A stretch of 64,000 nucleotides of DNA from Vibrio metschnikovii CIP 69.14 (GTDB lineage: Bacteria; Pseudomonadota; Gammaproteobacteria; Enterobacterales; Vibrionaceae), in the NCBI RefSeq assembly GCF_000176155.1, contig NZ_ACZO01000006.1, forward strand, positions 1,674,001 through 1,738,000, read 5' to 3'. Within the stretch, counting starts at the first letter, position 1; each line of letters begins with the position of its first letter. Under the pieces are notes generated by a model. That model saw nothing but the letters and a program-made list of their open reading frames with translations, was not told the DNA's origin and did not search any database. Shown here one piece after another: positions 44,582 to 64,000 of this stretch. Position numbers and translations under genes: made by a program.

Positions 44582-45041
44582 GTATGCAAATTTCCTTACA
44601 AAACAGAATGGTACTCCGACAACTATAAGCCTGTTAATCAATATATTGAATAGAAAAAGGTGTGTTCATAGGCATTTATCAAAAAAGCGCAGGGGAGCAG
44701 ATCTTTTGTTTGTCCATTATTTTTAGTATGGAAAAAACCGACAAGCAGAATAAGGTGTATTATCGTTCTAACTCACTTTGGGGCAAAAGTGTTTTTGAAT
44801 TTTTAACAAATTAGCAACCCCGTATTAGGTTGATTATAGCAATCGCATAGTAGCTCAAGGAAAAATCAAGCATGTATGAAAAACAGGCTCACAGGAGCCT
44901 TATCAACGTTAACTCCTGAGATACCCATACATTTCATTTACTAATGTCGTAAATGGAAATACCTGTTGTCATAAAGGTAACGCGCCAAGTTCAGATATGT
45001 CTCATATTATCCTCGTAACCCCAACCACTTATGAGACCACC
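44582..45041. other. Intergenic region between KAP gene and mdtL
   Basis: About 460 bases, divergent promoters expected. It holds a small hairpin GGCTC-ACAG-GAGCC (44886-44899) and a motif CTCACTTTGGGGCAAAAG at 44772 that recurs in related form elsewhere in the element. No supported gene. Confidence 0.5.
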
Positions 45042-47923: not shown

Positions 47924-48787
47924 TTATAAATAAACTGCATCAAGTACGCCTTCATATTCGGGTTTATGCATGAATTCATCCATGTAAGCTATACAAAAAC
48001 TGGAAAATGGAGCTTCTTTGCTGCGCATTTTGCACAAGCGGTAAATTGCTTGCTCATACGCGAGGTCATTGTCTGCGTCGCCAGTCTCTAATTTGTTGAA
48101 GTACCTCTTTGCAGCACTAACGTCCTTATCAATTTTGTTACGTAATTCAATGCGGCAACGAACGAAATCTGAGTGATTGAGGTTATAAAATACAATCGAT
48201 TGGTCTGCACGCATAAACTTACGAGCATGTTTTTCTTTAGAAAACCGGGGCATAGCTTCACCATCAGGCTTAAATTGTAGCAACTGCACATCGGTAGCTT
48301 TCAGAGGATCAAGCAGTACGGCTTGTTCATCCTCTAAATCGCAGTCAGGAGTCTGAGCTCGCTTGCTTTCATCGCAAAGCGGGAAGTGGTCGGCTTTGCC
48401 GCCAGTCACGCCAGTTACCACATCGGTTCGGCGCCGATTTGCAACTATACAGCTGTATCGATAATTTTGAAGGCAGAATGCTAACCACCAGTAACCCTCA
48501 TGAGGTGTTACTGTCGATAGTGTTTCTTGCACACGCTTCTTAGGACGAAAATGGTCGACATCAACATCTGTCCCCTGCTGAGGTGCTTCTGTGTACCAGC
48601 ATTTATAGTTGAACAGGGAGGCTAATAATGGTTTAACCACTTTCCAGTGATCCTGATTCTTATTTATAATATCAGATCGTTGTTTTTCATTTTTTGCATC
48701 TCTCAGTGAGTCTGAAAGCTGCTGAGCTTTATCTCTCCAGCCTTGCGGAAGTTCGAGCTGGCTGAAATCAATGTCTAAGTGCCTCAT
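47924..48787 (-). CDS. HNH endonuclease-like protein (PtuB/TIGR02646 type)
   Basis: 287 residues. An HNH-type core: C63 in YKCWYTE, DVDHFRPKKR with D78-H79, then WWLAFCLQNYRYSC and ANRRR (N117). The DVDHFRPK...NYR..C..AN pattern is that of the HNH partner in Septu (PtuB) and in retron-associated PtuAB systems. It overlaps the upstream ATPase gene by four bases (ATGA), and it is the last gene of the hsdM operon. Predicted DNA or RNA nuclease effector; substrate unknown. Confidence 0.8.
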   Translation of the reverse strand: MRHLDIDFSQLELPQGWRDKAQQLSDSLRDAKNEKQRSDIINKNQDHWKVVKPLLASLFNYKCWYTEAPQQGTDVDVDHFRPKKRVQETLSTVTPHEGYWWLAFCLQNYRYSCIVANRRRTDVVTGVTGGKADHFPLCDESKRAQTPDCDLEDEQAVLLDPLKATDVQLLQFKPDGEAMPRFSKEKHARKFMRADQSIVFYNLNHSDFVRCRIELRNKIDKDVSAAKRYFNKLETGDADNDLAYEQAIYRLCKMRSKEAPFSSFCIAYMDEFMHKPEYEGVLDAVYL

Positions 48788-50445
48788 TTGCTGTCTTCTT
48801 CCTCTTCGGCAGCCAGCATCCGCTGAACAATCGCTTTGGCTCGCTCCTTTCGAATCTGTTTAAGTTCTGGCGTTTCAGTAACGACTTCAGATTCCCGTTC
48901 CACTTCTCTGCGCATACGCAAATATTGTGCATATTCTTCATCCCAGTGGGCAGTGGTGAAACCTAAACCTTCTATTGCTTTGTCGATCTTCCTCAAACGC
49001 CCTGCCTGAATAGGTGATAATTCAGTCTTTTCGGTAAAACGTCGACGTAAGCGAAGTAATCGCTCTGTTGAATTATCCAGCGTTGTACGCAAACCAAACA
49101 TATCACTAGTGAGTATTCCGCCGTATCCCATACCTCTGGGGCTTTCTTCGGGTTCTTGAGCATATACCTGAAGGCTAGAATCACGCCACATGACCTGCAC
49201 TTGCTCCTTCTTTAATTCAGCAATAGCAAGTGGGTGATGTGTCACCATCAGCAAATGGCTGGTTTCGTGGTTAGGCACAAACTCGCTCAGAAATTTAAGA
49301 TATTTCACTGCCCATGAGGGGTTGAGATGAGTGTCCGGCTCGTCAAGTAAAAACAAGGAGTCTTTTCCTCCAGTAAACTTGAGCAAACCTAATACGGTAA
49401 GAAGTTGTTGCTCACCTTCACTGAGCTCTCGGAAAGTGAGTGGCTCTTTGCTACTAGATACCTTCACCCTAATACTTACTTCAGAGATGATTTCGGAAAG
49501 TAGTGTACTTTCGAGCATTTTAAACAGTTCATCAGGGCTAAGGTCTTTGGCAAACTCTCTGAGTGCGTTTACATCGGACAAAAACAGGTGAAAGAACTCA
49601 TTGCGAATATTGCTGCCAGTCAAAGAGGTGTCTTCTTGGCGCGTGACCTTAACGGGTGACAGCGTGTACTTTATCAGCTCATCTAAAAAGCGACGAACAA
49701 CGCCTCGTGCACCCCAGAACAATTCACCTTTCTGTTTGGCCCAACCGGGTTGGCGCATCACAAAATGAATACTATCTAGGCCTTCGATATCTAGGTGCTC
49801 GCGCAAAAAGGCTTTTTCTGCGCTGTCTTGCTCAGACAAGAAAAAAGCTAATAGAACAAATTGACTGTGATGGGGTTTGGCATAGAACAGCGGACGTATA
49901 TCACCTTTAAGGTCAAGTTCATCTTTTAATAAACGACGGTAAAAATCGGTGCGATGTTTCTTAAAATGGTTTTCCAAACGATCACTGGGGCCTGAATAGT
50001 AGGCAAATACATAATTTGGCAAATACGGAGCTTTACCTTCTTTGTCGCGCTTCACTTTTGAAAACGGAATGGCGCTGCCTGAAGGTTTCTCACCAAACAT
50101 GTCATCATCTGTGTCATCTGCTAATAAGTCGCGCACATGTACTTGGTACTGCTTGGCGGTTGTGCCACGTGTTGGGTCGGCATCAATCGTTATTTCCAGC
50201 CAGCGCTCACTGGGCTGCTTGGGTTTGTGGGGTTCGCCAAGCCGATAAACTAACTCGTATGAAAACGGTGGTACTTCCCCCAAATCGAGGTTACGAAATA
50301 TCGCGACCAAGGCTTCCAGCACGTTGGATTTACCCGAGCCATTACGGCCTACCACAACAGTCATCAGGTGGTCTTCGTCAAAGTCCACAGTTACGTTTTC
50401 AAGGTTTTTAAAACGGGAGCGAATATGTAATTTATCGACTTTCAT
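48784..50445 (-). CDS. SMC/ABC-like AAA ATPase (PtuA-like, restriction-associated)
   Basis: 553 residues. Walker A GRNGSGKSN at 33-41, ABC-type signature LSEGEQQLL at 341-349, Walker B LFLLDEPDTHLNP from 364, switch VTHHP at 401-405. This is an OLD/RecF/SMC-like ATPase without coiled-coil arms, the class of PtuA. Similar ATPases are known beside type I restriction genes. AAGGA lies about 9 bases before ATG 50445, 15 bases after hsdS. The gene order ATPase then HNH, with ATGA overlap, is the Septu order. Confidence 0.8.
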   Translation of the reverse strand: MKVDKLHIRSRFKNLENVTVDFDEDHLMTVVVGRNGSGKSNVLEALVAIFRNLDLGEVPPFSYELVYRLGEPHKPKQPSERWLEITIDADPTRGTTAKQYQVHVRDLLADDTDDDMFGEKPSGSAIPFSKVKRDKEGKAPYLPNYVFAYYSGPSDRLENHFKKHRTDFYRRLLKDELDLKGDIRPLFYAKPHHSQFVLLAFFLSEQDSAEKAFLREHLDIEGLDSIHFVMRQPGWAKQKGELFWGARGVVRRFLDELIKYTLSPVKVTRQEDTSLTGSNIRNEFFHLFLSDVNALREFAKDLSPDELFKMLESTLLSEIISEVSIRVKVSSSKEPLTFRELSEGEQQLLTVLGLLKFTGGKDSLFLLDEPDTHLNPSWAVKYLKFLSEFVPNHETSHLLMVTHHPLAIAELKKEQVQVMWRDSSLQVYAQEPEESPRGMGYGGILTSDMFGLRTTLDNSTERLLRLRRRFTEKTELSPIQAGRLRKIDKAIEGLGFTTAHWDEEYAQYLRMRREVERESEVVTETPELKQIRKERAKAIVQRMLAAEEEEDSK

Positions 50446-50460: not shown

Positions 50461-52218
50461 CTAAGCCTTGTTCATTTCTTCTGTTTCAGCTAAAGCAAAC
50501 CAATCTTGGCCATTGTCACTGCGCTCAAGCTTGACAATAGACTTTTCGATAGCAAGAGCGTTACGAATATCTAGAAAGAACGATTCAAGTTGATCGGTGC
50601 TGCTGTCGCTGGGGTAGCCAGCTGCCGCTAACAATTGCTGGCCACTAAGCGGCTTTCCAGTTTGTTTTAATGCTTCAACTACTTTTATAATCTGTTTGTT
50701 CATGCGGTTACCTGCCTTCTTTTTTGCAGTGGTTCGTTTCAGCTTAGGTTGCTTTTCGATAGCTCCACGTTCGGCTTTTATTTTTTCTAACAAGGCCTTA
50801 GCGCTATTTTTACCGCTGATCAACTCTGGGTTAGCGCTACGCCAATCGGCGGTTAGGTCCCCGCGAAAGGCTTTGGTGAAAATGGATTGAGGAAGATTAT
50901 TCACTAGCTCTGTAGCCATATTGACTTTTTGCTCAATATTGTCAGCACAAGCAAAAAGCTCTTCAACTCGACGGACGATTTCAACCTGTTCGTCAATTGG
51001 AGGAATAATTGCGAACAATGAGTAGTGCGCCGTAATAGGAACAAAGTCTCTTGTTGTTTGGGACTTTATAGCATCTACTTGTGATGTAAATGCATTAGAC
51101 TTGAGCATTAGTGCATAATATTGATTCAAAACATATTTTTGGTTTAATCTTATGTATGTAGTTTGAGGGTTTAAAACAGATGCTCTGTCTGCGATACCTA
51201 CTTTACCTATAGTTCCTTTATGAGAATAAATGACATCTTCAGCCTCAGAAAAACCTACTTTTAACTTCTCTAAAGGTTTTCCAGAAACCTTCGGGGCTCC
51301 ATCATAATCAATCTTGCCATTGTCGCTCATCTGAGCCGCGGTAATAAAAGGAAGCCCTTTTTCAGTAAACTCTAATGATTTTGGATGGTTGGACCCATGA
51401 TTGCCATCTTTAAGGTCTATTATTACGCCCTTACGTAACAATGATGCTACTGAAAGAATACTCCAACTTTCAGGGAACCTAGATTCTTTTAGTGCATCAG
51501 GTAACGCAACACTATCTGGCAATCCTCTTCTCGTTTTATTGTTTTCTGGTAGTTCACGAACAGTCCAAGCCGATTTTAAACTAGAAGCTCGCCAATTCCC
51601 TGTCAACTTGCCACTCACCGCAGCAGTGAGGATAGATTGGCGAAAGGTTTTTAGAATGTTGGGAATGCGTTCGAGACGAACTTTGGTGGTCGCCACCTGT
51701 GCCAGCATGAGGTCGAGTTTGTCGGCGATGGCTTTTTGTTCGGCTAAAGGGGGGAGTAGGAACGGTAACGTTTTTGCTACGGCACCGGAGATTTCCTTAA
51801 AGGTAGTACCTGTTCCTAAACTCTCTGCTAAATCCCTTATACTTCTTAGGTAGTAATACGCATAGTCCGAATCAACCCCACAGGGAAAAACGAAGTTCTT
51901 AAACCCTTGATTGGTTGATATATCATTTTGTGCGATAGCAACATATCCAATCGGCGCACGGCTGCTGAACAGTAGGCTACCTTTCGGCAATATTTTCGCA
52001 GAGCTTGAATTGTATCCTTGGTGGCTCAAGTCTCTGGCACCCAAACTAATATATTTTCTTGTATAACCACTCAAGTCCGCTGGTGTTAACCAAGCAATTC
52101 CGGTCCCAGGTGTTTTAAAGTTATCAGGGTTACCTGCTTTCGGAGTGCCACCTGCTACAACTTCCGCGACTTCGCCAATTTTTAGCTCGATCCAGTTGTA
52201 TGAATTGACTGAACTCAT
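50461..52218 (-). CDS. hsdS: Type I restriction-modification specificity subunit HsdS
   Basis: 585 residues from ATG 52218 (TGATG overlap with hsdM). Two target-recognition domains: the first opens NWIELKIGEVAEVVAGGTPK (about residue 9), the second FPESWSILSVASLL (about 245); each is followed by a conserved helical spacer (PPLAEQKAIADKLDLMLAQV and PPIDEQVEIVRRVEELFA). An extra C-terminal part of about 90 residues (KQIIKVVEALKQTGKPLSGQQ on) looks like a winged helix and goes beyond ordinary HsdS. It sets the DNA sequence for methylation. Confidence 0.93.
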   Translation of the reverse strand: MSSVNSYNWIELKIGEVAEVVAGGTPKAGNPDNFKTPGTGIAWLTPADLSGYTRKYISLGARDLSHQGYNSSSAKILPKGSLLFSSRAPIGYVAIAQNDISTNQGFKNFVFPCGVDSDYAYYYLRSIRDLAESLGTGTTFKEISGAVAKTLPFLLPPLAEQKAIADKLDLMLAQVATTKVRLERIPNILKTFRQSILTAAVSGKLTGNWRASSLKSAWTVRELPENNKTRRGLPDSVALPDALKESRFPESWSILSVASLLRKGVIIDLKDGNHGSNHPKSLEFTEKGLPFITAAQMSDNGKIDYDGAPKVSGKPLEKLKVGFSEAEDVIYSHKGTIGKVGIADRASVLNPQTTYIRLNQKYVLNQYYALMLKSNAFTSQVDAIKSQTTRDFVPITAHYSLFAIIPPIDEQVEIVRRVEELFACADNIEQKVNMATELVNNLPQSIFTKAFRGDLTADWRSANPELISGKNSAKALLEKIKAERGAIEKQPKLKRTTAKKKAGNRMNKQIIKVVEALKQTGKPLSGQQLLAAAGYPSDSSTDQLESFFLDIRNALAIEKSIVKLERSDNGQDWFALAETEEMNKA

Positions 52219-53750
52219 CAATTCATCTCCAAAGCGGTTAGCAATCCGTCGAGCTCCCTCAGAGCTGCTTCCAATTCTTCTTTTGCCTCTTGCGCCAATA
52301 CGTCCGGCTCTGACAAACCGGTTACATCAATACTGTTTTTATCTTTCAACCAACTGATATCTAGCGAGTCGCCTTTGGTGTTGGCAATCCACTTGCGGCT
52401 AAAGCAACGCCAGCGGGAATGAGCGAGTCGGTCATCGCCCCTCTGGTTTTCTTCCACGGCATCTTTATCGACCTCGATCTCCTGTGCGCCGAAGCTGAAT
52501 TCACCTTCGGTGCGTTTGCTAGTGCCGTCAGGCTTATCACCAAACACTTTCTCAAAGGCCCCCATGTGTGGGTCTGTGCCCAACTCTTCTGGCGTAAAGC
52601 CAATATCAGAATTGCCAAAGGGGGTTCGCTTGCCAAAGCTTGGCATATTGGTACGTAGATCGTAGACCCAGACATTCTGAGTGCAGCTTTCTTCCTGATA
52701 TTTGTCTTTGACTGATCCCTTGGTGAAAAACAGCACATTGGTATTTACGCCCTGAGCGTAAAAGATACCGGTGGGCAAGCGCAAAATAGTGTGCAGGTTG
52801 CACTTGTTCATCAGGTCGCGGCGCACCTCGGTGCCGACACCGGCTTCAAATAACACGTTGTCAGGCAATACTACGGCAGCACGGCCACCGGGTTTGAGCC
52901 CCAAATAAATATGCTGTAAAAAAGCAAGTTGCTTGTTCACATTCGGGAATGGAATATCGTTACGCAAAGGACGTTGCCCCCCAGCTTTATTACCAAAAGG
53001 AGGGTTAGCTATGATTACATCTGCTTCTGCCAATTCAGCCACGTCATCAGTCAGTGCATCACCATAAATAATATTTGCATCTAATTCATGTAGGAATGTA
53101 TTCATTAAGCAAATTCGACGAGTATTTTTCTCTATTTCCACCCCTTGATATTTAGGAGGATTAGCTTTGTATTTTTCTCGTAAATATTTGTTTCTAATAT
53201 AGCTGTCAGCAGAAACCAAGAAGCCACCGCTTCCGGTTGCAGGGTCTTGAATTAATTCACCAAGGTTGGGCTGTATTAATCTCACTATAGTGTTAACTAA
53301 AGAGCGTGGAGTGAAGTACTGACCAGCTCCAGAACGAGTATCCTGAGCACTCTTATCAATTAACCCGCTGTATACGTCACCAAACCCATCTTTTCCTACT
53401 TGGTGCCACTCTATTTTTGAAATGCCATCTATTACAGCTTTTAAATTCTCGGAGTGTGAAAAAACTGTTGTAGGAAAAGCATAAATTGCCTTTACAACTT
53501 CATTTTCAACAGAAGCACCTAAGTGAGTAAGCATTTCTTGATAAAACCCTAATAGCCCATCTCCTTTATAAGATTCCAGATCTACCCAGCGATAACCTTT
53601 AGGTATCAACTTTTCTGAACCATTTTCCTGAGCAATTTTAAGAAACAGCAGATAACTTAGTTCAGATACATACTGGTAATAAGTGATCCCATCGCCACGA
53701 AGTATGTTACAGAGGCTCCATATCTTTTGAATGATGTTATCTTGCTTCAT
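52218..53750 (-). CDS. hsdM: Type I DNA methyltransferase subunit HsdM
   Basis: 510 residues starting ATG 53750 (GGAG seven bases upstream; the frame is open to a TTG at 53762). N-terminal HsdM domain (about 5-120), then the SAM site DPATGSGGFLVSA and catalytic NPPF in ADVIIANPPFGNKAG: N6-adenine methyltransferase. No hsdR follows anywhere in the element; the next genes are hsdS, the ATPase and the HNH protein. Confidence 0.95.
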   Translation of the reverse strand: MKQDNIIQKIWSLCNILRGDGITYYQYVSELSYLLFLKIAQENGSEKLIPKGYRWVDLESYKGDGLLGFYQEMLTHLGASVENEVVKAIYAFPTTVFSHSENLKAVIDGISKIEWHQVGKDGFGDVYSGLIDKSAQDTRSGAGQYFTPRSLVNTIVRLIQPNLGELIQDPATGSGGFLVSADSYIRNKYLREKYKANPPKYQGVEIEKNTRRICLMNTFLHELDANIIYGDALTDDVAELAEADVIIANPPFGNKAGGQRPLRNDIPFPNVNKQLAFLQHIYLGLKPGGRAAVVLPDNVLFEAGVGTEVRRDLMNKCNLHTILRLPTGIFYAQGVNTNVLFFTKGSVKDKYQEESCTQNVWVYDLRTNMPSFGKRTPFGNSDIGFTPEELGTDPHMGAFEKVFGDKPDGTSKRTEGEFSFGAQEIEVDKDAVEENQRGDDRLAHSRWRCFSRKWIANTKGDSLDISWLKDKNSIDVTGLSEPDVLAQEAKEELEAALRELDGLLTALEMN

Positions 53751-53778
53751 TAGCAACTCCAATCTATTAATATTCGAT

Positions 53779-54003
53779 TTATAGTCGAAATTCTTTTACA
53801 TCAAGAACCTTCATGCATTGCATAAAAAAAACGAAGCTAAATGTTCCTCTATTAATTTTATTAGCCACACCTTTATAACTCTCATTAACACCAATAATTG
53901 CTAAACGTCGGCATAATTCGGCATAACCGACACCCGCGCGTCGCAACTCTGCTTTGAGCAAATTTGAAGCTCGAATATTCAATGCATCCTTATCCATCGT
54001 CAT
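53779..54003 (-). CDS. Small predicted regulator, about 74 residues
   Basis: MTMDKDALNIRASNLLKAEL through ELCRRLAIIGVNESYKGVANKINRGTFSFVFFMQCMKVL: a compact helical protein of the DUF6471/helix-turn-helix look (pattern AELCRRLAIIGV...VANKINRGTFS). Start placed at ATG 54003; the frame is open to 54069 but that would cover the operator. It lies 28 bases upstream of hsdM and under a perfect inverted repeat, so it probably autoregulates itself and the operon, like restriction controller proteins. Confidence 0.65.
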   Translation of the reverse strand: MTMDKDALNIRASNLLKAELRRAGVGYAELCRRLAIIGVNESYKGVANKINRGTFSFVFFMQCMKVLDVKEFRL

Positions 54004-54033
54004 TACATAATGTACAATAATGACCTCAATATA

Positions 54034-54088
54034 CCACATATATGTAGATATATCAACGTAAAAATACAATAAATCTACATATATGTGG
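54034..54088. promoter_or_regulatory. Perfect inverted-repeat operator of the hsd operon
   Basis: CCACATATATGTAGAT at 54034-54049 and its exact complement at 54073-54088 (16-bp arms, 23-base spacer). Each arm itself contains the 10-base palindrome ACATATATGT, so these look like two operator sites 39 bases apart. Position is directly upstream of the small regulator gene, where the promoter must lie. Confidence 0.75.
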
Positions 54089-54184
54089 ATTTATTGTAAC
54101 CATTTTGTGAGTAGACTTTGCTGAACAAATAGAATGAATTTATGCCACAACAGCTGATCAGATCCCGAGACAATGGTCTTGCTC

Positions 54185-54745
54185 ATATCCAAGAAGCTTG
54201 CCAAAACGCAACTGAAAGAGAAACCAAAGTACAAGGAATTCAACTAGCCAGTGTATAAAAGAGCTTTCTAATACATAGGCTTGGTAACCTTCTGGCTGGA
54301 TGAACAGGCACTGTCCAATTGGTGATATACACAACCTAACGGCAAACGTGGGTGGGACTTATACCTACTGTGATTTAGCAAATCAGACCTTTCTGACGCT
54401 TTAGGGAGTGATGCTGAAAAGCCCCGATTACAGTACGTCAGCAAACAAGTGGGTATCAAGCCCCAAAATTCAAAAGTACGGTTACTCACCTCGTGTTGGA
54501 TGTCACCGACCTAATGGTTTTTGGCGAAGGGGAATGCAAGGTGCGTAAAAATGGCAAAGAAAGGCACCGTACATCGCGCAAAGCACACTTGGCTGTAGAT
54601 GCTGCTAGCCAGCAAATTCTTTGAGCCAAGATGTCTTTGGATAATATCGGCAACAACTGCAAAAAAATTGGCAAAGTATCCGACGACGTTACCTATAATA
54701 CCAAAGCCTGCTATCAAAACGAGCAGCGCAAAGGAGCAACAACTA
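54185..54745 (+). pseudogene. IS5-family transposase remnant
   Basis: Broken frames on the plus strand read like the IS5-group transposase: PKYKEFN*PVYKRAF..LVTFWLDEQAL near 54210, then, frame-shifted, VTDLMVFGEGECKVRKNGKERHRTSRKAHLAVDAASQQIL near 54500 with stops within and after, then SLDNIGNN and CYQNEQRKGA. Multiple stops and shifts, the 5' and 3' ends and terminal repeats are missing. It lies between tnsE and the cargo. Confidence 0.75.
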
Positions 54746-54752
54746 ATACAAT

Positions 54753-56396
54753 TTATAACACTAATATTTTTTCTGCAGACCTAGCCACCCAGGACTCAAG
54801 CGCTTCATTTTCACTCTTTACCTTATTATCCGGATGCCCAAGATAAGAGCATACTTTGGTATTTGCTGAATTAAATTGTCGCTTCCAGCTCATAGCATTG
54901 AGCCCTTTGTCTTTATCTCGGCTCATCAATTCTTCAAGTATATTTTGGCAGCCAGTTCCGGAATTTTTCGTTCGGAAGAACAGAGTTGATAAACTTTCAT
55001 CTTTGGTTAACTCAATTTCCAAAATTTGAACGGTTGTCGTGTCATCACGTTGGATAGTTGCGTGACAAAACTGCCGGGGCCGACCGTCAATCAAATGAGC
55101 ACTACGACAACTCTGCTTCGGTACATCACCCATTTGATAATCAATCTTCCAACTATATTTGGATTCAAGTTGCTCAAGCATAACTTGGAAAAATGCTATT
55201 TTCTCAGGCGATTCGATTAACTTGGGAGGTTCTAGATTATCAACATCGGCACGTACGCCTTTACCGGTATCTTTCCCTTCTTGTAAACTCGCTAACTCTT
55301 CCTCTGACTGCTCCTGATTATCATCCAATTCAGGTTTCGTATATGGTGGTAATGCTCTTACATGGCGAGGGCTTCTTCTATAATCAGGCTCAACATCAAA
55401 GTTCAAACCAGATCTTCCCAGTTTGACAAGATACCGTTTTTTACTCGCTTTAGGATTGCCATCCGGATCAAGTTCTTTGATATTAACAAGTGGTTTATTC
55501 GGTTTTCGGGGCTTATCTCCATTATCAGGCTCTTCCGAATCAGATTCGATATAAAGAACATCATCAGGATGTGAGAATACTACGGTATATAATTCTGGGG
55601 ATTGTAGACCCGAAATGGAGCGGATTTCACGGATATAAATGTGCTCGTTTGACTCACCGCCAGTAAATCCAGCATACGAAATTTCACAATTCCCTAGGTC
55701 AGGAGGTGAAAAATCAAACGTCCACCTTTCTCCGTTATCAATATCTCTTGCTGTTCGGTTTATTTGTGCAAAGATAGAGCAAAAACTTTCCTCGGCTTCA
55801 GGAACAAAGAATAACCAAGTGAAAAACTTTCTAAACTGCAAGCTATTCAGATATCTAATAGGTATATTAGAGGACAACTCAACCTCCCCAATCCAATCCT
55901 GAGCGGATGACTTACCTAATTGCCAAGTATTTCCCTGATACACAGAAGCTCTTGCCACTTCTGCTGAATGGAAAAATAGCATTCGCGCCAATTCAATAGC
56001 AGGTAGCCAATAAGTTCGTCCCGCTGAATCAAGGCGATAAACAACCAAATCATCAACTTGTTCCGAATACTGTCCGGCCCGGTGTAAAGAACTGGGAATA
56101 TCCCCATATCGGAATTTTTTCCAGTGACTGATACCGGGGACTTGAAATGTCCCACTCCATCCCTGAGCGACATTCTCAATTGACTCTCTTGGGAATTTAG
56201 TGCCGGCCGTTAGGGTTGGCAGCATATCAATCGGTAACGGTTTACGAATCGTATGCTTTTCATCATGCCAAAAATAGCAGACGACCTGCCAGTCATGCCC
56301 AGATTTTCGATACCAATCACCGAGTAATACAAGCTTTGAACCTCTGGGAATGCTACGAATTCCAACCTCATCCAACTCACTCATTTCTGACGTCAT
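54753..56396 (-). CDS. tnsE: Transposition protein TnsE
   Basis: 547 residues, close to the 538 of Tn7 TnsE, in the tnsE position. It directs insertion to lagging-strand-like structures in conjugating plasmids, with the sliding clamp as partner. The C-terminal third (IAFFQVMLEQLESKYSWKIDYQMGDVPKQSC, ILEIELTKDESLSTLFFR, LEELMSRDKDKGLNAMSWKRQF) resembles the conserved TnsE DNA-binding domain. Its ATG overlaps the tnsD stop by four bases (ATGA). Confidence 0.82.
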   Translation of the reverse strand: MTSEMSELDEVGIRSIPRGSKLVLLGDWYRKSGHDWQVVCYFWHDEKHTIRKPLPIDMLPTLTAGTKFPRESIENVAQGWSGTFQVPGISHWKKFRYGDIPSSLHRAGQYSEQVDDLVVYRLDSAGRTYWLPAIELARMLFFHSAEVARASVYQGNTWQLGKSSAQDWIGEVELSSNIPIRYLNSLQFRKFFTWLFFVPEAEESFCSIFAQINRTARDIDNGERWTFDFSPPDLGNCEISYAGFTGGESNEHIYIREIRSISGLQSPELYTVVFSHPDDVLYIESDSEEPDNGDKPRKPNKPLVNIKELDPDGNPKASKKRYLVKLGRSGLNFDVEPDYRRSPRHVRALPPYTKPELDDNQEQSEEELASLQEGKDTGKGVRADVDNLEPPKLIESPEKIAFFQVMLEQLESKYSWKIDYQMGDVPKQSCRSAHLIDGRPRQFCHATIQRDDTTTVQILEIELTKDESLSTLFFRTKNSGTGCQNILEELMSRDKDKGLNAMSWKRQFNSANTKVCSYLGHPDNKVKSENEALESWVARSAEKILVL

Positions 56397-57928
56397 CTTA
56401 TCCCCAACATTTCCAACGCGATAATTTCTAGTTCAATTCTTTCAGTAACTAATTCTTCTCTAATGTTCGCTGCTCTAATCAGTTTCCAGCGTTTGATTGT
56501 TTGATTCTGTTCGAGCAAATGATGAAAAGCCGATTTAAGCCTAATTATTTGATAGTCTTCTAATGATTCAGAATGTAAATCCAACCACTGCTTAGTCAAA
56601 GGTAAATCGACCAAATGTTTCTGAACTGAATTTGCTCTTGGCAACTGCTGAATCAAATGACTTGCAGTCAAACGTGGTCGTCCTTCAACTTGAAATAAAT
56701 GTTCATAAATGACCGTCAATGCCTTTACATTTTTTCTGTCCCAACCAGGATAGTCGACGTTTCTAAATAATTCAAAAGCGGGGTATTTTTCAGGATGATG
56801 GCACATTAACCATGTATAGTCGTTGCGGTATAACCACGCATAAACACGGCCACCTGAATTAAGTTTACGTAATTTCTTCACCCCAAAATCAGAATGTTCG
56901 GCCATCAATTTAACCCATGCATTTCTATGTACTTTAATTTCTGCCGAAGACTTACCAGTAGCGATGAACACTGGTGTAAATCGTTCTTGCTCAGCAGGAA
57001 ACTGTTTCACCTGCTTTAATATTTTGGACAAACTTTTATCCGGGGTTAATGCAGCTATAACCATAAGATGACGGAGCGGATTAAATGATTTTCGATGCTT
57101 ACGAAACAGATTGATGAGCCAACTTTTTTCGTTCATTTCAGGTAAAAATGAATCCAAGAATGAGTTTTCCCAAACTTGTTTTAGGCTCTGATGAATGTCT
57201 TGATGTTGAACACGACTTTTATGAGTAAACCCAAGATCGTTAGCAAGTTGTTGGTAATATAGTGACCAACGGTTTACCCCTAAACCTTCCAAAGAAGATG
57301 TATTCAGTAGTTCTTGGTGATATTCAATGACCCGTTTTTCCGAATGTGTGAGATCAACACCTAGCGTCTGGCGCGAATGGCATTCAATAATAGCGGCGTG
57401 ATAATGGTGCTTTTCTTGGGGATGAAAGGGAGCTGTGGTATCTTCAAGTTTACAGTGATGATCAATACAAACATCAATACCAGGCAATTGATGCATACGC
57501 CTCCAATAAGGTTCTCCCAATTCAACTAATTGCTCTTCGAAACATTGTGGACAATATCGAAAATAGGCAGGTATCGGCACACGACTCGCCACTATACCCA
57601 CACGCGTATGAATTCCCCCCCCATCCTCAGACCCCATTGAGGAAATAACACCTCTTGTCTGCTGATCAGATAAGAATGGAAAATACAACGGTGCTAACGT
57701 AAATTGAGTAATCAGCTCTTTGATACTGATTTGCCAAACAGCTCCAGCATTATCAATGAAATATTGTAAATGGCTAGGCAAATCAGGAATAGCCACTGCA
57801 CTATCAGTTCCCCAAACATCTCTGACTACAGCTTTTTGGTTATGCGCTTGCCCGGTATGACACCCATAACGGGCAATACAGCTATAAAGCAGCTCATCTT
57901 CATATGGTACGGGGAAATAAGTTAGCAT
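56393..57928 (-). CDS. tnsD: Target-selector TnsD (TniQ family)
   Basis: 511 residues (Tn7 TnsD: 508). It has an N-terminal TniQ domain (MLTYFPVPYEDELLYSCIARYG) and a zinc finger C126-x2-C129...C154-x2-H157, the same residues as in Tn7 TnsD, shifted by two. It binds the glmS 3' end and recruits TnsC, and the insertion 25 bases past glmS agrees. It follows tnsC with a one-base gap. Confidence 0.96.
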   Translation of the reverse strand: MLTYFPVPYEDELLYSCIARYGCHTGQAHNQKAVVRDVWGTDSAVAIPDLPSHLQYFIDNAGAVWQISIKELITQFTLAPLYFPFLSDQQTRGVISSMGSEDGGGIHTRVGIVASRVPIPAYFRYCPQCFEEQLVELGEPYWRRMHQLPGIDVCIDHHCKLEDTTAPFHPQEKHHYHAAIIECHSRQTLGVDLTHSEKRVIEYHQELLNTSSLEGLGVNRWSLYYQQLANDLGFTHKSRVQHQDIHQSLKQVWENSFLDSFLPEMNEKSWLINLFRKHRKSFNPLRHLMVIAALTPDKSLSKILKQVKQFPAEQERFTPVFIATGKSSAEIKVHRNAWVKLMAEHSDFGVKKLRKLNSGGRVYAWLYRNDYTWLMCHHPEKYPAFELFRNVDYPGWDRKNVKALTVIYEHLFQVEGRPRLTASHLIQQLPRANSVQKHLVDLPLTKQWLDLHSESLEDYQIIRLKSAFHHLLEQNQTIKRWKLIRAANIREELVTERIELEIIALEMLGIR

Positions 57929-57929
57929 C

Positions 57930-59588
57930 TTAACCAGCCAGCAATTCGTCGATCGGATAAATCAACTGTCGCTCTAATAATGCTTCGTACTGCGATCCTG
58001 TTTTATCAATATAAATTTTCCTTAAATCATGATCGGATAATTGCCCCCAATCACTTGAACTCGTATAGACAGGTTTCTCTTTCTTTTTCTTCGCGTTAAC
58101 TGGTTGATGAGCATCTTGAGTTAAAGAAGTCGTCACCAATTGCATTAAATGAAGAAGTTGGAGGTCTGGGTTTCTGGCCAAGGCATCGGTAACTAAAGGG
58201 CGAGCAATATCTTCTGCAACTCCCATAGAAACGATTGCACTAATCGCTGAGTTAGCCACATTATTTTCAGAGGAATCACCAAGCTCGACGGGTTTCGGTT
58301 TTGGTAATGGTTGAGAGACAAGTCTATCAAAAGCACCGATTATGCTTTCTTCCAATTTAGGAAAAACAAGATCATTGCACTCTTCAACTTTCTTCTTATT
58401 CCCACTTCTTAACGCTTCCAACATCGGTCGGACAATTGAAAATTCCTCTTCAAACACATCATTGAATAGTTCAACAGACAACATCTCGTCTTCGGCGCTG
58501 CCTGCTAACAAAATGGCACGCGCCTGAGCCAAACAAAACAGTTTTACAACAATATCCGGGATGCCCTGACTCAGTTCATAAAGCTTATTGGTTAAGGGTT
58601 CTGTTCTTTCTACTTTGTTGTTCAGCCATTGATAGGGCCAGAGTTCGGTCAGAAAGTCCTCCCAGCTTTCATCAAATGGCAATCGGTCCCAAACAATACT
58701 TCCATCACCGCTCGCTCGGCGGGCTTGGCGAAACTCACTGGTAAAGAGCCTCAACGCTTTGGGAGTGCCAATTAGAACCACTGAAACCTCAACAACGTTA
58801 ACCAATGTGACCAGAAAATTAATCATTTTCTTTTCACCGCCACTCTTAGCAAGATTCATGTGCTGAAACTCATCAATAACGAGCAAGCCAATCGCATGGA
58901 TCAGGCAAAGGTCTGCAACATCTGCCATCATTTTACCGATAGTTGGTCGGCCAGAAGCATATTTAGCCCGATAATCAATATTTAGGCGTCGCCCTAAAGC
59001 GATAAAGAAGCTCAGACAAAAATCCGAAAGTGATCCGTCGTGTGGGCAATCAATTTTTAACCATGGAACCTGAAGTAAATGATACTCAGGATGATAAATT
59101 ACTCGATCGTAAGTATTAAGTACCAGATTTACAGTAGTCGATTTACCCGCTCCTGATATACCAGCAATAGCCATAGAAGATGCAGGAGAGTCGACTTCAT
59201 CATGAATATAAGCGGTTAAATCTTCACGTTGAACTAAATCTCTGATCGTATTGAGCTTACGTTTAAAAGTGGCCGTATTCGGATTTCTGTTCAGGTAGCT
59301 GGAGCGAATTAACTTAGACAGTTTTTGCTCCACAACAATATGATTGGTCTGCGGTACAAAAAACGACCTAGTCAACCGGTTAATCGCATGCGTTCGAATA
59401 TGGCTTTCCAAATTCAATTCAGCAGAATGATAGTCAGGTCGTTTCCTTAGAGTTTTAGCTACATCAACGGGACTCATAATTATCGGCAAAGCAGCAATAA
59501 GCGGATTATCATTGTATTCTGGTAATCCTTGATCTTTATAATCAGCTTCAGGATAACGAGTGTTATTATAGTTATTCATCTGAGTCAT
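57930..59588 (-). CDS. tnsC: Transposition regulator ATPase TnsC
   Basis: 552 residues. AAA+ ATPase that links target-bound TnsD or TnsE to the TnsAB transposase. Walker A GISGAGKST at 143-151, Walker B LLVIDE at 235-240, followed by FQHM. It overlaps tnsB by 17 bases. Confidence 0.96.
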   Translation of the reverse strand: MTQMNNYNNTRYPEADYKDQGLPEYNDNPLIAALPIIMSPVDVAKTLRKRPDYHSAELNLESHIRTHAINRLTRSFFVPQTNHIVVEQKLSKLIRSSYLNRNPNTATFKRKLNTIRDLVQREDLTAYIHDEVDSPASSMAIAGISGAGKSTTVNLVLNTYDRVIYHPEYHLLQVPWLKIDCPHDGSLSDFCLSFFIALGRRLNIDYRAKYASGRPTIGKMMADVADLCLIHAIGLLVIDEFQHMNLAKSGGEKKMINFLVTLVNVVEVSVVLIGTPKALRLFTSEFRQARRASGDGSIVWDRLPFDESWEDFLTELWPYQWLNNKVERTEPLTNKLYELSQGIPDIVVKLFCLAQARAILLAGSAEDEMLSVELFNDVFEEEFSIVRPMLEALRSGNKKKVEECNDLVFPKLEESIIGAFDRLVSQPLPKPKPVELGDSSENNVANSAISAIVSMGVAEDIARPLVTDALARNPDLQLLHLMQLVTTSLTQDAHQPVNAKKKKEKPVYTSSSDWGQLSDHDLRKIYIDKTGSQYEALLERQLIYPIDELLAG

Positions 59589-61686
59589 CCTCTTTAAGCA
59601 AATCTTTTAATCTCGTTGGCAACTTAAAGCTTTTCTGAGCTGGTTTTGCTCCATGAATCGGTGTAACCGTTGCTAATGAATCACCAGATTCCTGATCATT
59701 CTTGGCCGACTTTTTGTCTCGCTCATATTGTCTTTCGCTACTTTTATTACCCGAGATACCTTTCGCTCTTTGTGCTTTTTCTGCTTTGGTGTACTTAGGT
59801 TGCTTTGCTTTTGCTTCATCAGCAATTTGTTCAAGATCAGTCACCAGGTTAACGGAACCAGCTCGGGCTTTTAATCTAGATGTCGCCGCTGCCGTGTTTT
59901 GCTCATCACGAGTAGTCCAAAGCTCCCACATTGTCATGTTGGCAAATGCTCGGCTCCGCTCAGTAAGGTGTGCAGGAATAAAATCAGCATAAGAGTCAGA
60001 TGGTCTCAAATAAATCGTATTTGTGGTATACAAGTCATACGCCACTGTAACTGATTTGGGGCCTAGATAATTACCTTCGAACCATCCCCAATCTAACGCC
60101 TCTTTACAACTGTAGTAACAACCAAAAAGCTTTAGTCCATGTTCAGTGATAGTCGCCGTAGTATGCGGTAGCAGATTTACGTTAACTAACTTCGGATCTG
60201 GTCTACGAAGTAAGCCGGTCCGATATTCAATCCCCCAGTTCCACAGAGTAAGAGGATTTGCCGGCAGATCTTTAGGAATGCCAGAATCAATATCGTAAGT
60301 ACTAATCACATGCTCATTGTTGTAGAAAAGAACAATCTTAATCATCATCTTAGTGAATTCTTTCAGGGTAAGAATTCCATCCTGACGATAGTCGTTGCCA
60401 TGCCGTTTTTTACCTATCGGATTTTTTGTCACATACCCTTCAACAAACGGCTTCATCTTGGTTTGAGTGGTCCGGAAATATCGTTCAACAGACCCTTTCC
60501 AATCTGCGCGAAAAGACGGAGTATTTTGAATATCTACATGAAAAGCTTTACTGAGCACTTCTACATGCCGTCCCAGTATTTCACCTTTATCACCAATAAG
60601 ATTTTCAGGTAGTCCTTGCATCGGCCACATATCTGGAGTGATCTCGATATCAAACTGGGCGCAATATTCGACCTTGTCGGCCATCGACGCACTGAGTGCC
60701 TCCATAGCCGCAACCCACGATGGATTCTCCAAACCGATATACATTCCAACGATAGCGCGACTGAAAACATCCACAACAAAATAGAGAGTTGGACGACCTA
60801 TTATTTCTTCACGATTTAGCTCTGAAACCAGATAGACATCAGCAATAGTCGCATCAATTTGATATAAATATCCCGGACCGGGAACTTCCGCTGTTGATGT
60901 ACTGAGAACAGGCCGATGATCTTTTAGGTAACTAATTTCTCCTTCTCTTTTTCTAGTCACTTCGATAGATGTGTACTCTTTTTTATAAAAGTAACCAAAT
61001 TGCCTTTCAGTCGGTACATCAATTAAATCTTCTGGCTTACAAGGTAACTTTATACCGTAAGCAATAAGTAATTGATTGTACGCGTAATCAAATTCATATT
61101 TACCCTGATTTAGCAGGCACTTTTCAATCACAACTCTAAAAAGCGACTTCATTTGCTCGGTAACTGGCACCCCCTCCCCAGAGGCTCTAGTACGACGACG
61201 ACCGTTACGTTTATCTTGAAATTTTTTAGATTTACCAAGGCCACCACAGAGATAATACCGCCCACTTAATGCATTTTTGCACATGCCAAACTGCCAGTAA
61301 CGTCTAAGCCACCGATATATCGTCTGCTTAGTTGCCCCTGATTGCTCCAGTACTTGATTGAAAAGTTCGCCTCTGGTTTTTCTCTGATATATAGCTGGCT
61401 CAGCTTTAATCACCAAGCCAATAGCATTCCAGGCTTTTTCCTGAACAGCTTCAGCCTTTGAACCTGTTTTCGGGGAAGTCATACTGAATTTGATATAAGG
61501 ATCGGCTATGGACAGCAGTTCTCTCCTTGCCATAAAATGTTCAAAATCAGATTTTGACGCAATCTGTGGAAGGGCACGGTCATCGTCAATGTCTATCCAG
61601 AAGATAGCTTGCTGATTACTCCACAAAATTCGGATTCTTTTTTCATCCCAGGCGTAGACATCGTTAGGCATGAACATATTGAGCAT
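59572..61686 (-). CDS. tnsB: Transposase TnsB (DDE)
   Basis: 704 residues (Tn7 TnsB: 702). It cuts and joins the 3' ends. The DDE triad is D278 (YLYQIDATIADVY), D366 (LIGDKGEI) and E401 (SVERYF). Spacings D-D 88 and D-E 35 equal those of Tn7 TnsB (273/361/396). N-terminal helix-turn-helix region (TKQTIYRWLRRYW about 119-131). It overlaps tnsA by 23 bases. Confidence 0.97.
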   Translation of the reverse strand: MLNMFMPNDVYAWDEKRIRILWSNQQAIFWIDIDDDRALPQIASKSDFEHFMARRELLSIADPYIKFSMTSPKTGSKAEAVQEKAWNAIGLVIKAEPAIYQRKTRGELFNQVLEQSGATKQTIYRWLRRYWQFGMCKNALSGRYYLCGGLGKSKKFQDKRNGRRRTRASGEGVPVTEQMKSLFRVVIEKCLLNQGKYEFDYAYNQLLIAYGIKLPCKPEDLIDVPTERQFGYFYKKEYTSIEVTRKREGEISYLKDHRPVLSTSTAEVPGPGYLYQIDATIADVYLVSELNREEIIGRPTLYFVVDVFSRAIVGMYIGLENPSWVAAMEALSASMADKVEYCAQFDIEITPDMWPMQGLPENLIGDKGEILGRHVEVLSKAFHVDIQNTPSFRADWKGSVERYFRTTQTKMKPFVEGYVTKNPIGKKRHGNDYRQDGILTLKEFTKMMIKIVLFYNNEHVISTYDIDSGIPKDLPANPLTLWNWGIEYRTGLLRRPDPKLVNVNLLPHTTATITEHGLKLFGCYYSCKEALDWGWFEGNYLGPKSVTVAYDLYTTNTIYLRPSDSYADFIPAHLTERSRAFANMTMWELWTTRDEQNTAAATSRLKARAGSVNLVTDLEQIADEAKAKQPKYTKAEKAQRAKGISGNKSSERQYERDKKSAKNDQESGDSLATVTPIHGAKPAQKSFKLPTRLKDLLKEDDSDE

Positions 61687-62530
61687 CCTTTCCTAACCAA
61701 TACTCTGAAGCAATGATATTTTTAGCTTTTAAGCTTGTGTGCAGGTAATTCTGCATGTCCCACTGGAAAGCGTTTTGTGCGGCAAGATGCCTGAAATATT
61801 TTAGGTTTGTACCGCGCTCAAGTCCTTGTTTTTGATCCAACTCGCTAAGCACCACTGGGAGCTTTTCTTCCCGGTTGGCATCCAGCATCTGAAGGATACT
61901 CTCAAATACGAACATTCTTCGAGAGTCATCAAGATCATAGCTGTGCATGTGGGGAGCCAGCCAACGGATATTTTTCACAAAATGAACTGGCACTTCATGT
62001 TCAGTGAAGATAAACCATTCGATGCCTTCTCCCTCCCAAAATCGCCGTTCCAATTCTAGCTTCTCAATTGTCCGTTCATCTTCAAGATCCTGCGCATACT
62101 TGACCGATATTGCTTTGCTCAGCTGCTGCTCATCTGAATTGAAATCAACAAGTAAGTCAGTTGTCATTACTTGGATAACACCTTGATAGGCTGGGTGTTT
62201 AATCCCCAACCGTTTTGCTATAGAAATCGTTGCTTCAGGATTAAGAGGGAATTGCTCTCGGATATCGATAACCGAGTGTTGCCAGTCGAAGATAAGAAAT
62301 GCTGCTAATTCAAGATCAGAAAGTAAATGAACAATACGATTATGAGTAAGAGCTGGTCGTCGATGAACCCTTCCTTTACTGGGAACATCCCGAACGGTAA
62401 GGAACGGCTTGTAATGTTTGCCAACTCCCTGACCTAGCTTCTCTTTTTGTAAACGCTTGAGAATAGCAGGTTCGAGTAGATTAGTGATTTCCCGAGGATG
62501 AGGGGTAAGAAACGAAGTGTCTTGTTTCAT
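61664..62530 (-). CDS. tnsA: Transposase endonuclease TnsA
   Basis: 288 residues. It cleaves the 5' ends so that transposition is cut-and-paste. The catalytic residues, as in Tn7 TnsA E63/D114/K132, are E74 (SDLELAAF), D125 (MTTDLLVDF) and K144 (ISVKYAQD); E-D spacing 51 is identical. First gene of tnsABCDE, adjacent to the right end. ATG at 62530 with only a weak upstream ribosome site, just past a strong palindrome. Confidence 0.96.
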   Translation of the reverse strand: MKQDTSFLTPHPREITNLLEPAILKRLQKEKLGQGVGKHYKPFLTVRDVPSKGRVHRRPALTHNRIVHLLSDLELAAFLIFDWQHSVIDIREQFPLNPEATISIAKRLGIKHPAYQGVIQVMTTDLLVDFNSDEQQLSKAISVKYAQDLEDERTIEKLELERRFWEGEGIEWFIFTEHEVPVHFVKNIRWLAPHMHSYDLDDSRRMFVFESILQMLDANREEKLPVVLSELDQKQGLERGTNLKYFRHLAAQNAFQWDMQNYLHTSLKAKNIIASEYWLGKDAQYVHA

Positions 62531-62673: not shown

Positions 62674-62710
62674 TTATTCCACCGTCACCGCTTTGGCGAG
62701 GTTACGTGGC
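62674..62710 (-). other. attTn7 recognition region in glmS 3' end
   Basis: The final glmS codons ([11 protein letters not shown] and stop) correspond to the segment bound by TnsD in E. coli. Insertion occurred 25 bases beyond, as expected. Confidence 0.85.
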
Positions 62711-64000
62711 TGATCAACATCTGTCCCTTTGATCAAGGCGACGTGATAAGACAATAACTGCATCGGAATCGTGTAATAGATCGGCGCAGTAATGGTACTA
62801 ACAGGCGGCATAGTAATGATTTTCATCGTCGCATCTTCAGCAAAACCAGCGTCTTGATCGGCAAAGACATACAACAAACCACCACGCGCTCGCACTTCTT
62901 CGATGTTTGATTTGAGCTTTTCAAGTAAATCATTACTTGGAGCCACAACAACGACTGGCATATCAGCATCAATCAGCGCGAGTGGCCCATGTTTTAACTC
63001 ACCCGCCGCATAAGCTTCTGCGTGAATGTAAGAGATTTCTTTGAGTTTTAATGACGCTTCAACGGCAATAGGGTAAAACTCACCACGGCCTAAAAATAGC
63101 GTGTGGTGTTTATCGGCAAACTCTTCGGCAATCGCTTCAATCTGTTTTTCACAGCCAAGGGCTTGCTCTATTTGTCTTGGTAGAGCATGGAGAGCTTGGA
63201 CAATCTCCGTCTCTAGTACACGATCTATCACTTGCTTTTGTTTGCCCAATGCTGTGACTAACATTAATAGAGCGGCGAGCTGAGTGGTAAAGGCTTTGGT
63301 TGATGCAACACCAATTTCCGTTCCGGCACGAGTCATAAAGGCAAAATCAGACTCGCGCACTAAAGATGAACCCGCGACGTTACAAATCGTCATCGCCGCC
63401 ATGTAACCTTTCTCTTTCGCTAGACGCAGTGCTGCCAGTGTATCGGCGGTTTCGCCTGATTGAGATAAGGTGATTAATAGGCTATTGGGGCGAGTAACAA
63501 ATTTACGGTAGCGAAATTCAGAGGCAATTTCCACATCGCAGCTCACGCCGGATAAAGCTTCAAACCAGTAACGAGCCGTCATACCTGCGTTGTACGACGT
63601 ACCACAGGCGACAATTTGGATATGCTCAACTTGCGCTAAAATTTCCGCGGCATTGACACCAATACTCTCGGTGATCACGCTATCGTGAGTGATGCGCCCT
63701 TCCATGGTATTGATCAACGCTGTGGGTTGCTCGAAAATTTCTTTTTGCATAAAGTGGCGAAACTTACCTTTATCACCAGCATCGTGTTCAGCGTTCGACT
63801 CAATCACTTCACGCATTACCTGCTCGCCATTGGCAGCAAAAATATTCACCTCACGGCGCGTCACTTCAGCAACATCGCCCTCTTCAAGGAACATAAAACG
63901 GCGAGTCACATTGAGTAACGCCAATTGATCAGAAGCTAAGAAGTTTTCACCCACACCTAAACCAATCACAATTGGGCTGCCTGAACGAGCCACGACAACT
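62674..64000 (-). CDS. glmS: Glutamine-fructose-6-phosphate aminotransferase GlmS, C-terminal part
   Basis: About 441 codons of the isomerising glucosamine-6-phosphate synthase visible; the N-terminal glutaminase domain is past the right edge. SIS domains: [22 protein letters not shown] and [13 protein letters not shown], then [27 protein letters not shown], and the terminal [13 protein letters not shown], nearly identical to E. coli. The last codons are the TnsD binding site (attTn7). The gene's own terminator has been pushed away by the insertions. Confidence 0.98.

Follow-up and report, generated by a model that had tools for sequence, protein, structure and literature searches.

We consider it likely that the DUF6471 protein encoded at the head of a defense operon in Vibrio metschnikovii CIP 69.14 is a small autoregulator with an XRE-type DNA-binding fold whose mode of action resembles that of the controller (C) protein of a restriction-modification (RM) system. 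The gene lies in a 64,000-nucleotide stretch of the genome (positions 1,674,001 to 1,738,000 of contig NZ_ACZO01000006.1; here called the window, in whose numbering all coordinates are given). Gene and operator together form a conserved module, which most likely works like a C protein although its regulator belongs to a separate family.

The regulator gene occupies positions 53779 to 54003 of the minus strand, as a 74-amino-acid reading frame from the ATG at 54003. Its product matched the Pfam family DUF6471 (PF20075) over residues 9 to 71 with an E value of 1.4e-26 and 92.6 bits, against a curated cut-off of 26.8, and a scan with NCBIfam assigned it to no family. The start codon is uncertain: between 54003 and 54025 the window has an ATT behind a GAGG where the homologues L037 and L038 have ATG, and the true start may therefore lie a few codons 5' of the ATG at 54003. 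The AlphaFold2 model of the protein contains four helices (residues 5 to 23, 27 to 36, 43 to 52, and 57 to 66), with a mean pLDDT of 93.7 and a pTM of 0.81; the reading frame and the model thus agree with the helical protein of 74 residues described in the initial annotation. A Foldseek search of the model against solved structures gave no match at an E value of 0.001 or below, and the best chains were those of C.BclI (TM 0.74), C.Esp1396I (0.71), and C.AhdI (0.68), all with E values above 0.1 (C.BclI matches, TM 0.73 to 0.74, E 0.19 to 0.42). Alignment with VIA-align gave Z 9.0, an rmsd of 1.5, and 64 aligned residues for C.Esp1396I, Z 8.9, an rmsd of 1.8, and 68 aligned residues for C.BclI, and Z 8.2 for C.AhdI, a range in which the program warns, for Z below about 13, of an arrangement that may be common among helical bundles. 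Sequence identity to the C proteins in the structural alignments was 15 to 16%, and XRE and POU proteins from outside RM systems scored as well as the C proteins. Given these equal scores, and Z values that helical bundles commonly reach, the predicted structure indicates an XRE-like DNA-binding protein and not a C protein in particular. A profile search of PDB sequences returned six weak matches (E 0.37 to 0.66), none of them a C protein; the RptR structure 9R2Z was absent from the six, and the PDB copy searched may lack it. We found no mention of DUF6471 or PF20075 in the literature searched, a search that lay apart from the published catalogue of C-protein sites.

Upstream of the gene, the 16-mers CCACATATATGTAGAT (54034 to 54049) and ATCTACATATATGTGG (54073 to 54088) are exact reverse complements of each other and share the self-palindromic core ACATATATGT, which bears out the earlier description of a perfect 16-bp inverted repeat with palindromic arms. 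A repeat search returned the pair as 20-nucleotide arms, 95% complementary and 15 nucleotides apart. Repeat and site scans define a putative proximal operator, ATCTACATATATGTGGTA, at 54032 to 54049, and the top-scoring site, the putative distal operator ATCCACATATATGTAGAT, lies at 54073 to 54090, with its center 41 bp upstream of that of the proximal operator; both are given on the minus strand. The spacing in homologues suggests a weak middle site (score 4.8) at 54052 to 54069 of the same strand, 21 bp from the distal site, which gives the window a strong site at 0, a weak one at 21, and a second strong one at 41. The distal operator lies within a near-perfect palindrome of 34 bp (54065 to 54098, no strand) with arms that are 94% complementary. 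The outer arms of this palindrome (pairs 9 to 14) pair at 6/6 positions in the window and L038, at 5/6 in L032 and L046, and at 1/6 in L039 and L040, and the letters differ between loci though the pairing is kept in L032, L038, and L046; extended contacts or a hairpin are possible explanations of this pairing.

The only sigma-70-like match between positions 53700 and 54300 was TTGATA-17-TATATT on the minus strand (54056 to 54028), which matches at 10 of 12 positions and has a TG before the -10 element. The promoter scan found this single match against a mean of 3.4 in shuffled sequences, so that the predicted promoter draws its weight only from its fit to the operators and from similar hexamers, each pair 17 nucleotides apart, in three homologues (ATGATA/TATGCT in L032, AGGATA/TATTAT in L037, and TTGATA/CATACC in L038). 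The proximal operator spans the spacer between the -35 and -10 elements and abuts the -10 element. If transcription starts about 7 nucleotides after the -10 element, the operator centers would lie near -20 (proximal) and about -60 (distal). The symmetric operator consensus is TCYACATATATGTRGA, and only two sites in the 3.8-Mb genome, the promoter pair, match it with two mismatches or fewer; the 15 further sites with three mismatches correspond to the control level (17 forward matches in total versus 19 for the reversed pattern). That the two promoter sites stand alone in the genome suggests that the regulator acts locally, on its own promoter, and not globally.

We compared the window with DUF6471 relatives from plasmids (15 records), whole genomes of the order (30 of 394, of which 25 were over the cut-off), genome contigs (80 of 101 loci retained), and viral contigs (4 loci). 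The comparison set comprised the window and 89 loci, and all 90 were counted, none being dropped for a short upstream region; control regions and control genes came from mechanically called open reading frames of the same loci, not from curated genes. The 16 best-matching loci (E ≤ 8e-21) are the window, L032, L036 (a larger stretch of L002), and L037 to L049; L056, at 57% identity and with a weaker E value, falls outside this group. A site matching the consensus at 14/16 positions or better within 200 bp upstream was present in 10/16 best-matching loci, in 0/74 other DUF6471 loci, and in 0/1089 control regions. The 10 loci are the window, a Pseudoalteromonas donghaensis plasmid (L032), Advenella (L037), Aeromonas salmonicida (L038), Pseudomonas oleovorans (L039), Tolumonas (L040), an Oxalobacteraceae metagenome-assembled genome (MAG; L041), Methylomonas (L042), a proteobacterial MAG (L044), and a Nitrosomonadales MAG (L046). 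No site of this quality was found in the other six best-matching loci (L036, L043, L045, L047, L048, and L049), and L117, a viral contig outside the group, has a 13/16 site. These counts support a putative operator specific to the best-matching DUF6471 group. As a stand-alone predictor, the exact 16-mer was rejected: it occurs in 2/369 genomes of the class, the second of which (G710) has no DUF6471 gene in a 3-kb stretch, and also in 46 viral contigs, where the stretches examined have no DUF6471 gene.

The arrangement of the sites recurs as well. In all 10 loci with a site of at least 14/16, the top-scoring site is farther upstream than the promoter-proximal one. The second-best site fell within 1.5 bp of a distance of 20.5, 41.5, or 62.5 bp in 11/14 loci, compared with an average of 2.38 and at most 6 in 100 shuffles. 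The test was not blind, because the intervals were picked after the site distances were known, and it excluded L040, which nearly duplicates L039, and L049, which has no site. The observed distances were 20, 40 to 43, or 62 to 63 bp, approximately multiples of two helical turns. L038 carries sites at 0, 20, and 40 bp, and L042 and L044 carry sites, some of them weak, at 0, 20, 43, and 63 bp.

Across the wider family, a palindrome with a CA-N4-TG core and at least 7/9 pairs was found within 180 bp upstream in 36/89 loci versus 14/1089 controls (37/90 with the window counted, and 28/74 outside the best-matching group), under a core criterion set after looking at the data and with some near-duplicate loci. 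The left half-sites read TTATCATA in L050 and L051, AATCCCATA in L054 and L058 to L060, GTCTCATA or GTCTCACA in L062 and L057, TATCGCATA in L102, TATGTCATA in L109, and TTTTGCATA in L113. A generic excess of palindromes, sought without the core, was significant (p ≤ 0.05) in just 14/90 loci and was set aside. We likewise rejected the idea that helix 3 and the half-site are related by a simple recognition code, for which the rank correlation was 0.17 (permutation p 0.012) and the partial correlation 0.13 (p 0.03), the same partial correlation for the rest of the protein being 0.07 (p 0.13); the test used 24 nonredundant sites of 27 found among 66 aligned proteins. In L045 the residues ESYKG are kept although the site differs, and L046 shows the opposite combination, altered residues and the same site. 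The link between recognition helix and half-site sequence is weak. Four sub-threshold DUF6471 matches (L027 to L030) were also seen, at the N terminus of proteins of about 250 amino acids in three of the four, the fourth being cut by the contig end.

The regulator heads a row of genes, all on the minus strand, that begins 16 nucleotides downstream (28 nucleotides if hsdM starts at its own ATG). They encode the N6-adenine methyltransferase subunit of a type I system, HsdM (52218 to 53762; N6_Mtase, 9.5e-70; HsdM_N, 8.3e-07; PADLOC MTase_I), the type I specificity subunit HsdS (50461 to 52221; Methylase_S, 1.2e-33), a PtuA-like AAA ATPase (48784 to 50445; PADLOC PtuA, 8.5e-215; sub-cut-off match to TIGR04435, restriction system-associated AAA ATPase), and a PtuB-like partner (47924 to 48787; PADLOC PtuB, 1e-104; no Pfam match). 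The last two resemble the Septu-type PtuA/PtuB pair and the restriction-associated AAA ATPases of TIGR04435. No HsdR was found among the ten window proteins scanned with Pfam, and the PtuA- and PtuB-like genes occupy its place. Because hsdM, hsdS, ptuA, and ptuB follow the regulator on the same strand, with 16 nucleotides to hsdM, modification and effectors are probably under joint regulation. Elsewhere in the window, a 564-amino-acid protein (42947 to 44641) matches the PADLOC candidate defense family PDC-S49 (3e-27).

The operon sits, as cargo of a mobile element would, among Tn7-like transposition genes, in line with the initial annotation. Pfam matches identify TnsA, TnsB-like, TnsC-like, and TnsD/TniQ genes, which together with a 547-amino-acid gene occupy 54753 to 62530 of the minus strand, and beside them lies a glmS-like SIS-domain gene (62674 to 63993), which we take to be glmS, reading the whole as an element inserted at the Tn7 site. 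The 547-amino-acid gene (54753 to 56396), which follows tnsD, has no Pfam or NCBIfam match, and its position suggests a transposition accessory gene. Between it and the regulator, the decayed stretch from 54100 to 54750 is presumably the remnant of an insertion sequence transposase.

The complete operon, with the regulator, hsdM, hsdS, and the PtuA- and PtuB-like genes, is also present in the P. donghaensis plasmid (L032) and in Advenella (L037), with respective identities to the window of 91% and 89% for hsdM, 97% and 89% for the PtuA-like gene, and just 42% and 58% for hsdS, while the A. salmonicida contig (L038) stops after an hsdM that is 94% identical. All three have operator sites; the search for the 16-mer upstream of homologous operons, proposed as a check when the repeat was first described, thus returned sites at these loci and, at 14/16 or better, in 10/16 of the best-matching group. 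Of the six plasmid records with a PtuA-like gene, the sixth being from Vibrio anguillarum, we examined five: L032, Vibrio vulnificus (L125), Pseudoalteromonas KG3 (L126), Pantoea (L127), and Roseomonas (L128). L125 to L128 keep the M, S-like, PtuA-like, and PtuB-like genes; in the stretches examined they have no DUF6471 gene and no operator site better than 13/16, and upstream they carry Fic, Abi, FRG, or MarR genes, possibly alternative regulators or partners. With three operons having both and four having neither, gene and operator are present or absent together among the seven. Homologous operons that lack gene and repeat, which the initial annotation had named as evidence against its proposal, do therefore exist among the plasmid relatives, and in light of these operons we read the regulator as an exchangeable, not an obligatory, module. 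In the search of 394 genomes across the order, no other genome with DUF6471 was labeled as belonging to the genus of the window.

We also examined which genes follow DUF6471 across the family. A same-strand gene lies within 350 bp downstream in 66/89 loci, and the first such gene was methyltransferase-like in 21/89 loci compared with 4/522 control genes (first genes of at least 100 amino acids; control genes of at least 150 amino acids and more than 4.5 kb away). The phmmer queries for methyltransferases were taken from the same loci, and 14/21 matches were confirmed by Pfam; L048 was scanned and had no Pfam match. L032, L035, and L002 (the same locus as L036), which have RM neighbors, were part of the query alignment, and without them the first gene was methyltransferase-like in 18/84 scan-derived loci. 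The Pfam types found downstream were N6_Mtase, Eco57I-like, N6_N4_Mtase, EcoRI_methylase, and C5 DNA_methylase; in L035 an N6_N4_Mtase gene is followed by a DEAD/DEAH helicase gene in a type III-like arrangement, and in L045 a D12 methylase is the second gene. Since 45/66 same-strand downstream neighbors are not methyltransferase-like, DUF6471 is not RM specific and serves other cargo too.

Comparison with known regulators places the window protein closest to C proteins (C.Esp1396I, C.AhdI, C.BclI, and C.PvuII) and to two regulators of type I operons. Like the C proteins, the DUF6471 protein is small, with a single domain of predicted XRE fold, and its gene stands at the head of an RM operon behind several palindromic sites with a TATA center, the proximal one within the promoter; the higher-scoring distal site corresponds to the high-affinity distal site reported for C.Esp1396I (PMC4041747). 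In contrast, C proteins belong to a separate Pfam family, and the classical C-box core AGTC/GACT is absent from positions 54028 to 54098, yet the L038 site reads AGTCC...GGACT. The window also differs in its spacing of about 20, 41, and 63 bp and in having methyltransferase and effectors inside the regulated operon, whereas C.Esp1396I is described as driving a joint unit of C and R, with M standing apart (PMC4041747). RptR, the RMS-proximal transcriptional regulator of an Escherichia coli type I island, is like the window protein all-helical (9 kDa) and encoded at the head of a type I RM operon, and several copies of its operator lie at the promoter (PMC12255303). It is reported to bind 6-bp TAGCTA palindromes in direct repeats (PMC12255303), whereas the window site is a palindrome of 16 to 18 bp and TAGCTA does not occur between positions 54004 and 54100; its authors report that a search of the PDB gave no structure closely homologous to it (PMC12255303), while the window protein has a predicted XRE-like fold. 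HsdC, a C-protein homologue described for type I hsd operons of Mollicutes and studied there by gel shift, resembles the window in having repeats that overlap the promoter (PMC5282649), but its commonest sites are given as direct repeats (GTGTTA and AACGA types), unlike the palindromes of the window (PMC5282649).

From these observations we propose that a regulator dimer would bind each palindrome TCYACATATATGTRGA, with the distal, high-affinity site, centered at about -60, occupied first. Dimers on the same face of the helix, in steps of 20 to 21 bp, would then reach the weaker proximal site in the -35/-10 spacer, and occupancy of that site would shut the promoter; the distal dimer might also activate at low dose, as in C proteins. 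A single transcript would run from the regulator through hsdM, hsdS, ptuA, and ptuB, so that the whole defense operon would be kept within limits after arrival of the element. The initial annotation had likened the system to controller circuits that delay nuclease expression in a new host. The controller part of that proposal is favored by the predicted XRE fold, the group-specific double operator, and the methyltransferase genes behind the regulator, while the nuclease delay is unproven because methyltransferase and effectors share the regulator's operon.

Within this proposal, it is slightly less than an even proposition that the protein is a plain negative autoregulator, its strong sites being bound cooperatively or looped over about four helical turns, with repression only and neither an activation phase nor entry timing. 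The position of the proximal operator across the spacer and against the -10 element fits such a role, and the predicted promoter, with its 10 of 12 matches and TG, is already good enough to make an activator needless. Repression alone is also plausible because RptR, likewise a small protein, is reported to repress a type I operon (PMC12255303). On the other hand, a strong upstream site would be superfluous for pure repression, and the higher score of that site in the 10 good-site loci is the order expected if activation precedes repression. That same order, strong distal and weaker proximal, leads us to entertain, more tentatively, a strict dual circuit of the C-protein kind, in which a distal dimer near -60 would activate and a proximal one repress in a delayed, self-limiting burst. 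The predicted fold resembles that of C proteins, and C.AhdI reportedly activates from a position upstream of -35 and represses from one between -35 and -10 (PMC5282649), which is the geometry seen in the predicted promoter of the window. Against a dual circuit, this promoter does not look activator dependent, the 41-bp center spacing is longer than the 35-bp operator reported to hold two adjacent C.Esp1396I dimers (PMC4041747), the middle site scores poorly, and with methyltransferase and effectors in one operon a timing of M before R is not obvious.

Two further readings depart from control of the cargo. DUF6471 might mainly serve the transposon, IS1595 or Tn7-like, by regulating transposition, with coregulation of RM genes an accident of position, as would be suggested by a divergent IS1595-type transposase gene in 33/87 loci (9 of these with a methyltransferase behind DUF6471), by a divergent TnsA-like gene in 4/87 (L055, L072, L082, and L102, in which the link to Tn7-like elements thus recurs), and by the strong site of L039, which lies between the two divergent genes. 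We regard this as unlikely: the tns genes of the window are on the regulator's own strand at a distance of about 0.75 kb, and 12/21 methyltransferase loci have no IS1595-type upstream neighbor. It is very improbable that the palindromes are not the regulator's operator at all but, for instance, a hairpin terminating transcription at the edge of the operon or AT-rich repeats that arose by chance. Although the 34-bp palindrome gives one plus-strand hit in a terminator search (0.3 on average in shuffled sequence) and its outer arms are largely palindromic in L032, L038, and L046 too, the hairpin has just three G-C pairs, the 16-mer recurs before diverged DUF6471 genes and in 0/1089 control regions, and the sites recur in steps of about two turns.

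Returning to DUF6471 as a controller of its cargo, we advance a broader reading with somewhat less than even confidence: that the family comprises unrecognized, widespread, portable C-protein-like controllers on IS1595- and Tn7-like transposons, each subfamily with its own palindrome built on the common CA-N4-TG core, arranged in two-turn steps on one face of the DNA in at least the subfamily of the window, and controlling the cargo that follows, prominently several unrelated types of methyltransferase, thereby letting it establish in a new host. If this is true, a domain of unknown function, DUF6471, would gain a role and an operator, and the reach of C-protein-type control would widen to transposon-borne operons with methyltransferases of the type I-like, type III-like, Eco57I-like, EcoRI-type, and C5 kinds. 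The DUF6471 homologues, with their differing predicted operators, would then form a natural series for recognition studies.
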